From positions 161,013-225,012 of the forward strand of contig JAKSLE010000003.1 of the NCBI GenBank assembly GCA_024401365.1: a DNA stretch of 64,000 bases, written 5' to 3'. The number at the start of each line of letters is the position of its first letter. Position 1 is the stretch's first letter. This stretch comes from Bacteroidales bacterium (GTDB lineage: Bacteria; Bacteroidota; Bacteroidia; Bacteroidales; Marinilabiliaceae). Below are positions 1,511-61,872 of this stretch, in pieces. Made by a program: the position numbers and the translations under genes. A model generated the notes under the pieces. The model saw only the letters and a list, made by a program, of their open reading frames with translations. It was not told the DNA's origin and did no database searches.

Positions 1511-2431
1511 TTGACGCTTGATGATTATGAAATAACTGGTTCACTAGGCTCTAAGGGGAAATTCGGAGGAGTCCAGGTAGGTTATGTCAAGGCTAGACCA
1601 GAAATTTCGGTAACAATCAAGCGAATAGAAAAATATGGTGAGAGGCTTCTTCCCCTTTTACAGAAGGTCAAGGAGATCTCTCATCCTTCTATTGCCCCTA
1701 TCCTTGATGTGGAGTCTGTGCCTAGTGTGGGCCTATTGGTTGCTCGCAAAAAAATAGAAGGAACAGACCTAAAAACCATCTTTACAACCAAGTCGCTCTA
1801 TAGGCGAGTAGACGAGAAAAAATTTATCCAGGCGGGGTGTGCGATACTCAGGGGGTTAGAGAAATTGCATGCTGCCGGGGTAATACATAGGGACATTAAG
1901 CCATCGAACATTATTATTCCACATGCGGAAGGAGAAGATGTGACGAAGGCAGACTTTTCGAAGGCAGTCATAATAGATTTTGAGCAAAGTTCTCCCTATC
2001 CAGACAATAGTGGAGTGCGGTCCTCCTTTGCGTTGGTATATTCGCCGCCAGAGATGCTCTTGAAATACAACAGTTTAGTAGGCCCTTGGTCGGACTTTTT
2101 TGCCTTAAGCGTCATGCTCTTCCAGTTGATTATGGGGAAGGCTCCGTATTCTGACTGCAATCCAGAGATACTAGTCAATCTGCAATTGACCTACCCCATG
2201 AAGCAGCCGGTGCGAATGGCAGACGACCTATATGCCTGTCTGCGCAAGGCAGCCTATAAAGAGCCATTCAGGATACCGCCCCGTCGTATGTCGCAGCAAG
2301 AGATTGAGCAGACGCTCAGGAAAGGCGTTCAAGGCAGGTATCGGAGTGCTGAAGAGATGCTCAGAGATTTGGAGCAAGTAGGAGAACCTTTCAAAAAGGT
2401 GTCGTGGATACAGAAAGTGCTCGGAGAATAA
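1511..2431 (+). CDS. Atypical Ser/Thr protein kinase with DFE in place of DFG
   Basis: A 306-residue soluble kinase domain with no membrane segment. The N-lobe Lys is in VTIKRI (K37) and the catalytic loop HRDIKPSN is intact (H126 to N133). The metal-binding motif reads DFE (D156) instead of DFG, the APE motif reads PPE, and the Gly-rich loop is degenerate (LGSKGKFGG). It therefore keeps the catalytic Asp and the metal-binding Asp and may be active, but its nucleotide pocket is unusual. The start is TTG; an ATG at 1504 is in another frame and stops after five codons. The gene lies 12 bases after the decarboxylase. A SpoIIE-type phosphatase lies two genes downstream, which suggests, but does not prove, a kinase/phosphatase pair. 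Confidence 0.75.
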
Positions 2432-12540: not shown

Positions 12541-12595
12541 GTGCCTTAAGGGTGTATTAAGGGAGCATTAAGAGAGCATTAAGAGAGAGTCAAGC
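12541..12595 (-). repeat. Array A1: five tandem 11-base units
   Basis: Read on the minus strand the units are GCTTGACTCTC, TCTTAATGCTC twice, CCTTAATACAC and CCTTAAGGCAC. Each ends in C(T/A)C. The array lies 39 bases past the stop codon of the EEP gene, in the same orientation, between two converging genes. It belongs to a family of six such arrays in the window. The constant element TGCGAGCAA is not clear here; an A run followed by CGCTG stands in its place. Confidence 0.8.
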
Positions 12596-31884: not shown

Positions 31885-31932
31885 TTTTTTTGCGAGCAAC
31901 CTATAGGCTCCCTTATATCAGCATATAGCTAC
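31885..31932 (+). repeat. Array A2: constant element plus three 11-base units
   Basis: The lipoprotein stop codon is followed by seven T (31885..31891), the last being the T of TGCGAGCAA (31891..31899), then units CCTATAGGCTC, CCTTATATCAG and CATATAGCTAC. A terminator hairpin starts 9 bases later. Confidence 0.75.
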
Positions 31933-36422: not shown

Positions 36423-36477
36423 CCCCATGTCTCTCTTAACACTCTATATACGCTCTCTCTATACAGCCTTAATACAG
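36423..36477 (+). repeat. Array A5: five tandem 11-base units
   Basis: Units CCCCATGTCTC, TCTTAACACTC, TATATACGCTC, TCTCTATACAG and CCTTAATACAG; a possible sixth (TCTATCCCCAC) precedes them. Two units nearly match units of array A1 (TCTTAATGCTC, CCTTAATACAC). No TGCGAGCAA element is seen. It lies 24 bases past the mfd stop codon, in opposite orientation to mfd. Confidence 0.75.
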
Positions 36478-42118: not shown

Positions 42119-42219
42119 ACAAATTTTTTCAAACTAAGACACAAAACCTCAAAAAGAGTGGTCGCCTCTTCATTTTTTGTATACCTATATATATGTATGT
42201 GCTCTCAATTCTCATTTTT

Positions 42220-42305
42220 TGCGAGCAACCTTATATCTCTTTTGTATCTCACTTGTACCACGCTTGTGTCTCATTCATACTTCCTGGTAGCTTCTTCATA
42301 GCTTC
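42220..42305 (+). repeat. Array A3: constant element plus seven 11-base units
   Basis: TGCGAGCAA (42220..42228, preceded by a T run) is followed without a gap by CCTTATATCTC, TTTTGTATCTC, ACTTGTACCAC, GCTTGTGTCTC, ATTCATACTTC, CTGGTAGCTTC and TTCATAGCTTC. Position 11 is C in all seven, position 10 is T in six. The following 55 bases stay pyrimidine-rich but lose the phase. This is the clearest member of the family. Confidence 0.88.
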
Positions 42306-42497
42306 CGTGCTTCTTTTGCCTCCTCTTGTCTTGCCTCTTCCGCCTGCCTGCTTCTCTCATCTTTTCTCTTATATATATAGGTGTAGCCTATCTCTATATA
42401 TAGGTATGGTCTCCATATATTGTTTCTCATGAAAATTTTTCAAAACAATATTCTGACATATCCAACTTTGGCACGCAATTTGTAAATACTCATATCG

Positions 42498-45785: not shown

Positions 45786-45846
45786 CCCACCACCCCGACC
45801 ACCACCTCGTAACCCCACTATCCCCCCCCTCATCCCAACCCAAATC

Positions 45847-45926
45847 TTGGAAAAACGGACAAAATAGCCTATTTCTCCTTGGAAAAACGGACATTTTCCC
45901 CTATTTTTGCCTTGGAAAAACGGACA
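45847..45926 (+). repeat. Three direct repeats before an AAA/DUF4143 gene
   Basis: TTGGAAAAACGGACA occurs exactly at 45847..45861, 45879..45893 and 45912..45926. Starts are 32 and 33 bases apart, about three DNA turns. The second and third copies also share CTATTT a few bases upstream. The last copy ends 4 bases before the ATG and covers the predicted transcription start. Confidence 0.95.
45902..45909 (+). promoter_or_regulatory. -7 element of the first AAA/DUF4143 gene
   Basis: TATTTTTG matches TAnnTTTG and lies between the second and third direct repeats, 21 bases before the ATG. Confidence 0.55.
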
Positions 45927-53903: not shown

Positions 53904-53989
53904 TGCGAGCAACAACTAATCACACACTACCCATGCGCTGTAGAGCCACCATGCTGGTGGCTACCTCCCTATACGCTCCAAAACATTTC
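53904..53989 (+). repeat. Array A4: constant element plus seven 11-base units
   Basis: Six bases after the umuD stop: an A run, TGCGAGCAA (53904..53912), then CAACTAATCAC, ACACTACCCAT, GCGCTGTAGAG, CCACCATGCTG, GTGGCTACCTC, CCTATACGCTC and CAAAACATTTC. Two units together form a 7-base hairpin AGCCACC / GGTGGCT (53944..53962). The units vary more than in array A3. Confidence 0.7.
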
Positions 53990-61225: not shown

Positions 61226-61735
61226 TTATCCTGCTAGTCTCATCGCAACTTCATAATATTCTTCAACTCCCCCAAACTTCCTATAGTAAAACGGCGATTC
61301 CTCATCCATCGCCTTCCACCTTTCTCCATTCCCTACTACCACAAGGTTCTTGCCTCTCTCTGCTTCAATCCCCATCTTCTCCATCCTGCTCTTCTCTAAT
61401 TCGTCACTCAATTCTCCCCCTTTTTCTTTCAGTAGCTTGTAAAAATACGACACTGCCATCCTGTGCGCCCCATTTATCTTGTGCCTCTTGGCTAGCCTCA
61501 TCCAGTGCCTCTTCTTGTTCCATCGCTTCATCTCGTACGACGCAAGTTTCTGTGCATCAGCAAATATGTCCCTACAGTTCCTCTGCTTCTTGCTTACTTC
61601 TACTCCTATTATCTTGTACGAACCGTAATAGCGCTTTATAAACACAGACCTACCGCTGCTGCGCGCGTTGGAGTCTCTTCGCGCAGCTTCTCTGGCTATC
61701 ATTATACACTTGCGTTTTATCTCTACTTTGGCCAT
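61226..61735 (-). CDS. Very basic protein of unknown function, 169 residues
   Basis: Starts MAKVEIKRKCIMIAREAARRDSNARS and stays Arg/Lys-rich to about residue 105 (KRWNKKRHWMRLAKRHKINGAHRMAVSYFYKLLKEKG), then becomes acidic. The charge suggests nucleic-acid binding, but no domain is recognised. The ATG at 61735 fits the promoter at 61760..61767; the longer in-frame start (61795) would lie before it. It lies next to repeat array A6, which is upstream of its promoter. Confidence 0.65.
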   Translation of the reverse strand: MAKVEIKRKCIMIAREAARRDSNARSSGRSVFIKRYYGSYKIIGVEVSKKQRNCRDIFADAQKLASYEMKRWNKKRHWMRLAKRHKINGAHRMAVSYFYKLLKEKGGELSDELEKSRMEKMGIEAERGKNLVVVGNGERWKAMDEESPFYYRKFGGVEEYYEVAMRLAG

Positions 61736-61767: not shown

Positions 61768-61808
61768 ATAGACTAAATGTCTCGTTGTATCTCATTTTTA
61801 TAAAAAAC

Positions 61809-61872
61809 TGCGAGTAACAAGGGGGGTCGCATAGACTAGCAACTGACTTCTCTCTTACTTCTTATGGCTCTC
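61809..61872 (+). repeat. Array A6: constant element plus five 11-base units
   Basis: An A run, then TGCGAGTAA (61809..61817, one base different from the other copies), then CAAGGGGGGTC, GCATAGACTAG, CAACTGACTTC, TCTCTTACTTC and TTATGGCTCTC. Pyrimidine-rich DNA continues to about 61905 with the phase weakening. It lies upstream of the basic-protein promoter and reads away from that gene. Confidence 0.75.

Follow-up and report, generated by a model that had tools for sequence, protein, structure and literature searches.

Background

The closest described counterparts of the repeats reported here are the REP/REPIN-RAYT (TnpA-REP) systems, in which, as far as the cited passages describe them, short intergenic repeats that also occur as inverted doublets accompany a cognate gene flanked by such repeats, and groups of repeats match subclasses of the protein (PMC6006769, PMC3116915, PMC8049555). 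In the same passages, REPIN/RAYT systems are defined by having one RAYT gene, by HuH chemistry and by repeats that form hairpins (PMC6006769, PMC8049555, PMC3116915), and the RAYT genes are under purifying selection and mainly vertically inherited (PMC6006769, PMC3116915, PMC8049555). Two other systems bear on the comparison in the portions of the literature cited here: IS200/IS605 elements, which insert at the lagging-strand template (PMC6006769), and the parS site of the ParABS system of plasmid pSM19035, where contiguous short repeats are bound by a small protein (PMC9499535). The present study concerns a family of 11-base tandem arrays, each usually headed by a constant element, in a 64,000-nucleotide stretch of a Bacteroidales genome (contig JAKSLE010000003.1, positions 161,013 to 225,012; hereafter the window) and a family of small basic proteins, for which the label ARP was coined in this analysis. 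The arrays number well over a hundred per genome and are carried by a small number of closely related, uncultured Bacteroidales. The match between header type and ARP type, together with the usual position of ARP genes beside arrays, suggests that the array family is a DNA element, mobile or bound by protein, of a kind not described before.

Results

The window genome, labelled G000 (3.05 Mb, 87% complete), was analyzed within a set of 15 congeneric genomes that includes it. The core TGCGAGYAA was present 211 times in G000 and 41 times in the reversed control, while AAAAY followed by the same core was present 153 times, with none in the control. A sequence-only reading of the window had proposed a family with a constant header. 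The family is real and has many copies, but the header is of several types and a neighbouring ARP gene (Table 1) had been overlooked. The usual layout was an A/T-rich tract, a 10-base header and 11-base units, the main header types being [CT]TGCGAG[CT]AA, TTACGAG[CT]AA and [CT]T[AG]CGATGAA. The unit bodies were variable and drawn from a small vocabulary (CCTTATATC, CAACTACC, CAAGGGAC and similar), and, judged by medians, copies resembled one another between about -12 and +30 relative to the header. Arrays of the same unit kind that lacked a header, designated class N, switched their endings from CTC to CAG; the G000 sample had 16 of them and the G013 sample 29.

Headers with an A-tract were chosen blind to the units; G000 supplied 74 (from 839 kb) and G013 supplied 117 (from 1157 kb). 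Positions 9-11 of units 1 to 5 read [CT][AT][CG] in 91, 95, 82, 54 and 30% of cases in G000 and in 89, 93, 90, 59 and 46% in G013. In registers shifted by 1-10 bases, a control made in G000 alone, the same endings occurred in 1-23% over units 1-4, so that the ending rule, originally drawn up with a phase chosen by eye, is independent of that choice. Because agreement declines at units 4 and 5, an array typically has 3-5 units. The predicted autocorrelation was also observed downstream of the header, where letter identity was 0.451, 0.419 and 0.356 at lags 11, 22 and 33 and the remaining lags between 3 and 35 gave 0.229-0.294, in a less independent set of 142 arrays picked by a matrix that includes the units. 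When trained on 190 arrays, a weight matrix found 73 sites in G000 (839 kb) and 134 in G013 (1157 kb), positives that overlap partly with the training set, and none when these sequences were reversed. By itself, a generic lag-11 scan did not make period 11 stand out in the G000 sample, where the windows numbered 45 for period 9, 27 for 11, 19 for 8 and 17 for 12; it is the header plus the register, rather than repetitiveness as such, that identifies the family.

Other 11-base arrays, of the GTCATACGCAC type, were seen in G000 (contig C12 near 208, 30180 and 94603) and G013 (C12 near 27370 and C1 near 213223); they follow a common sequence, cccagtaataccaa..cctgt..ccctccaaa, and seem to belong to a separate multi-copy element. 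Congeners that have neither ARP nor the header also contained short arrays of period 11, whose units were of quite another kind (L052:1265, L060:2566, L062:2549, L067:2718 and L069:237).

ARP is a small basic protein of about 150-190 residues that is encoded in multiple copies, with 20 matches in G000, 26 in G013, 17 in G008 and 10 in G010, one weak match in G005 and none in the 10 other congeners. The array-rich genomes were the identical four, with AAAAYTGCGAGYAA counts of 153, 112, 60 and 72, respectively, and 0-1 in the other congeners. A header was located just upstream of 48 of the 63 ARP genes placed on a tree (five of the 68 copies were omitted as truncated or fused), 43 of them divergent from the gene and 5 in its direction. 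On this tree, which has some near-copies and long branches, the header types changed twice among the headed rows, as few times as three types allow; when the absence of a header was counted as a fourth state there were 8 changes compared with a mean of 31.3 in shuffles, and none of 200 shuffles was as low. Since header type co-varies with the protein family, a DNA-binding array, one of the roles suggested from the sequence, is now favoured. A header antisense within the ARP coding sequence, present in 5 of the 63, was not used as evidence.

ARP evolves under purifying selection, with a median ratio of nonsynonymous to synonymous substitution rates of 0.12 and no value of 1 or more among 103 pairs, which are not independent of one another. 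The G005 match is a distant ARP-like open reading frame (30% identity over 103 residues, E-value 4e-4) with an 11-base array of its own some 190 bp upstream; within 20 kb, this was the sole window of period 11 to reach the 50% threshold. Because the header of that array is another one, the association of arrays with ARP, as judged from the sequences, is suggested to predate the present headers. No match to ARP was found in Pfam, NCBIfam, PHROGs or PDB; a comparison of 24 members with Pfam at E <= 0.1 gave nothing above the cut-off and only unrelated sub-threshold matches. At the thresholds used, relatives were absent from the virus, plasmid and phage collections, and, G000 aside, none were found in 295 genomes of the order. 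A structure comparison gave no significant match among the families it listed.

Comparison of G000 with G013 indicated how arrays differ between genomes. In 12 of 12 comparisons, an intergenic gap with an array exceeded its array-less orthologue in length, the excess being 82-299 nt. Among array-free gaps, thinned to 12 and 30 controls, the median difference was 4 and 2 nt, respectively. Two sites in G013, 19 kb apart, carry one composite of 113 columns in which a header and its array face an array and its header. The two copies are 89% identical, are bounded by A- and T-tracts, and one is longer by a single 11-nt unit. The recurrence of the composite at unrelated flanks with a one-unit difference provides direct evidence for the duplication of a piece bounded by arrays and for changes in unit number that involve complete units. 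The whole-unit differences expected between copies were also apparent in the spacing of same-strand headers less than 100 bp apart, which was 55, 66 or 88, all multiples of 11, in 17 of 18 pairs (35 in the exception) among the places listed in the G000 core search. In G013, a 435-codon open reading frame (C1 58352-59657), presumably DUF1016/YhcG-like from its motifs, and an ARP gene stand beside an array; the corresponding G000 site has the array alone. Six of the seven ARP loci with matches on both flanks were not collinear between the two genomes, one of them judged on multi-copy sequence, and five further loci had no matches. Synteny was broken at 12 and intact at 10 arrays in G000, and 11 and 19 in G013, compared with 16 and 53 for the controls in each case; 25, 84, 65 and 120 places were without matches. 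As parts of both genomes were compared, the synteny result is not relied on.

The arrays were oriented with respect to local GC skew, taken within 10 kb with same-strand arrays within 400 bp merged. The skew on the header strand was negative for 47/56 arrays in G000 and 75/105 in G013, and when the effect of gene orientation was removed the header lay on the negative-skew strand in 49/56 and 81/105, respectively. Class N arrays had the same polarity in 12/16 and 24/29. Gene orientation was unrelated to header orientation (30/56 positive in G000 and 56/105 in G013). The G-rich strand is usually taken to be the leading strand and, if it is, the headers point along the lagging strand.

The arrays of the window are listed in Table 1. 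The copy at 42.2 kb was as first described, a header followed without gaps by seven 11-mers (CCTTATATCTC TTTTGTATCTC ACTTGTACCAC GCTTGTGTCTC ATTCATACTTC CTGGTAGCTTC TTCATAGCTTC, at 42229-42305) with C at position 11 in 7/7 and T at position 10 in 6/7. This copy, first regarded as the clearest, is atypical. It follows a T-tract and not an A-tract, and its matrix score was 7.8 (best of 30 shuffles, 2.6) compared with 16.9, 29.5 and 41.1 for the arrays at 31891, 53904 and 61809, respectively. Tandem repeat finders recovered it only in part. The copy at 1748(-) is doubtful, its header and units scoring 8.8 and its shuffles reaching 15.9.

Table 1. Arrays of the 11-base family and the ARP gene in the window
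Feature	Position	Strand	Description
Array first described	42220-42305	+	Header TGCGAGCAA (42220-42228) and seven 11-base units; preceding T-tract, atypical
Array	61809-61872	+	Header TGCGAGTAA (61809-61817) and five 11-base units; A-tract before; divergent from ARP gene; matrix score 41.1
ARP gene	61226-61735	-	169 aa from MAKVEI..., range includes stop; alternative start at 61795 gives 189 aa; one of the 20 G000 matches
Array	31891-31932	+	Header TGCGAGCAA and three units; T-tract before; 6 bp past the end of a same-strand open reading frame; matrix score 16.9
Array	53904-53945	+	Header TGCGAGCAA and about three poorly kept units; A-tract before; matrix score 29.5
Header-less array, class N	36423-36477	+	Five units, endings CTC CTC CTC CAG CAG
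Header-less array, class N	12541-12595	-	About five units, TCTTAATGCTC type
Doubtful member	1740-1748	-	TGCGAGCAA with weak units

Two other repeats were seen in the window. A period-32 tandem repeat of 2.5 copies lies at 45846-45926. The segment 59263-59667 is probably another repeated element, because it has several matches in G013 (C26, C24, C12, C10 and C45) with identities up to 86%.

Discussion

The best reading of these results is that the arrays are helically phased putative binding sites for ARP, which may also mobilize them. The proposal that the family is a dispersed repeat of header and phased units, bound by a protein that helps to spread it, is one for which we judge the case to be about evenly balanced. 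ARP would recognize the header and coat the array with one contact per helical turn and, alone or with host enzymes, would copy or insert the element, with insertion favouring one orientation relative to the replication fork. Arrays without an ARP gene would be non-autonomous copies or remnants. Unit number would shift in 11-base steps and the unit bodies drift, while the header and positions 9-11 were retained; a copying process that adds units, another of the early suggestions, is possible.

Several observations weigh against this proposal. With helicases 80-82% identical to that of G013, compared with 52-63% in other congeners, the four ARP genomes seem to form a single clade, so that the co-occurrence of ARP and arrays is one evolutionary event. 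No recognised header was found at 15 of the 63 ARP genes, the class N arrays are headerless and have no evident link to ARP, and neither a catalytic motif nor a fold match could be recognised in ARP. GC skew is a proxy for the replication strand, and since the units themselves are G-poor, a compositional cause of the polarity is possible. In a looser comparison, two header-selected arrays gave no excess length (G000 C23, 639 versus 638; C2, 1422 versus 1668) and several coding arrays were equal in length. Facing pairs were rare, with two facing and one overlapping among 105 G013 arrays and 0/56 in G000; inverted ends with copies at unrelated sites were represented by the one duplicated G013 composite, most arrays being solo. 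There was no clear target-site duplication, with a possible 5-base repeat seen by eye at G013 C1 249289 and none evident in the composite.

Arrays inside genes are a further difficulty. Header places fell within long open reading frames, in either direction, in 9/75 cases in G000 and 10/127 in G013, and some arrays are in frame inside conserved genes. In one case the array lengthens a helicase-like gene by exactly 33 nt, keeping the reading frame, in comparison with nine of the ten congeners that lack it; the tenth is off by a codon. G000 and G013 share an identical header there but not the units, and G010 has a different header type at the corresponding place, where part of the stretch reads N. 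An array in an esterase-like gene retains its pattern across four species while the units differ. The gene was compared with five of the seven array-less congeners, the other two being without the anchor motif; with the array it is as long as in array-less G009, and in the other four it is 6 nt shorter. The sequences of these two genes point to constraint on the array, or its replacement in place, and the esterase-like gene does not look like a case of insertion. At a DNA polymerase I-like gene (G000 C23 and G013 C3) the header and three units were identical, with flank identities of 95/96%, well above the 65-90% at most other compared sites.

These coding cases and the conserved positions are better explained if the arrays are host sites under selection, that is, polar sites dispersed over the chromosome that act in fork passage, segregation or nucleoid folding, are read by the ARPs, and are gained or lost as DNA segments. 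The exact in-frame header of the helicase-like gene, the pattern kept in the esterase-like gene, the polarity with GC skew, the purifying selection on ARP, and the arrays at matching places in two species, three of which switched header type between GAGCAA and GATGAA, are all consistent with such sites. We nevertheless regard this explanation as doubtful, given that one header class has 144 copies in one species and 12 in another, that arrays are present or absent at many sites, that there are 10-26 ARP paralogues with private arrays, and that array spacing is at most mildly regular (coefficients of variation 0.88 and 0.86). The two ideas may be combined if the arrays derive from a tamed mobile element. 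The location of an array just upstream of most ARP genes, adjoining promoter-like TATATTTG motifs, would be expected if ARPs were transcription factors that regulate their own genes, the solo arrays being operators of a regulon. This appears unlikely, as array and gene orientation are unlinked and promoter regions are not preferred, the intergenic arrays lying in tandem, divergent and convergent gaps in ratios of 27/10/10 and 45/27/23 compared with 152/47/40 and 208/66/60 for background gaps.

Two further explanations are very improbable. The motif might accumulate because DNA bearing it is preferred in transformation, since a core with an A/T tract and a helical-turn flank recalls the Haemophilus uptake sequences as the cited portion of PMC7811141 presents them, and the motif does occur in coding frames. 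Its copies, however, number in the hundreds and not thousands, each genome has several header types that pair type-for-type with a multi-copy gene family, and the gap lengths are insertion-like. A transcribed RNA with periodic protein contacts, which the sequence-only reading had entertained, fares just as poorly: the window has no Rfam match, orientation relative to genes is inconsistent, and seven arrays, folded as single-stranded DNA, did no better than their shuffles (z from -0.33 to 0.94).

A more specific version of the mobile-repeat proposal is conceivable and is offered tentatively, our doubts exceeding our confidence. The family might be a new bacterial mobile DNA with a typed header and helically phased, body-variable units, recognized and spread in one orientation at replication forks by the new ARP family, whose N-terminal half may be KH-like and bind single strands, with complete units gained and lost by the arrays and the headers and proteins diverging together. 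The natural sites, about 150-300 in each genome, the several types of header and the dozens of ARP paralogues may allow a protein-DNA recognition code to be read from co-variation, and the persistence and replication polarity of such repeats become testable in a new lineage.

Literature searches made at the level of titles and listings and no wider (the header core, 11-bp repeats in Bacteroidetes, dispersed repeats in horse Bacteroidales and 11-bp arrays in bacterial chromosomes) found no description of the family. The likeness to REPIN/RAYT lies in the 100 or more repeat copies, the gene flanked by the repeat (48/63) and the repeat class that tracks the protein class (two changes). However, ARP has no HuH/Y1 transposase match, it is multi-copy (10-26 matches per genome) whereas RAYT is described as single-copy, and the arrays are 11-base phased units, not hairpins. 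Because these three defining features are lacking, membership in RAYT/REP was rejected. A search for Y1_Tnp gave none in G013, G008 or G010 and one locus above the cut-off in G000 (C76:8890-9171).

The uptake signal and DNA uptake sequences (USS/DUS) resemble the arrays in having a constant core, an A/T tract and helical-turn flanks and in being dispersed, also in coding frames, while the arrays are fewer, have several header types and occur alongside a cognate multi-copy gene family. The parS repeats of pSM19035 are heptads. Contiguous short units and a small protein, which in the case of ARP would bind them, are a design idea shared with that site; the arrays differ in being chromosomal, dispersed and 11-base, and ARP is unrelated as far as sequence searches go. 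A strand bias relative to replication is expected of IS200/IS605 elements in the cited portion of PMC6006769, but ARP gave no HuH/Y1 match and the array ends are not hairpins. If the proposal is correct, the arrays and ARP constitute a repeat-plus-protein system that is organized like REPIN/RAYT and is unrelated to it in both protein and DNA architecture.
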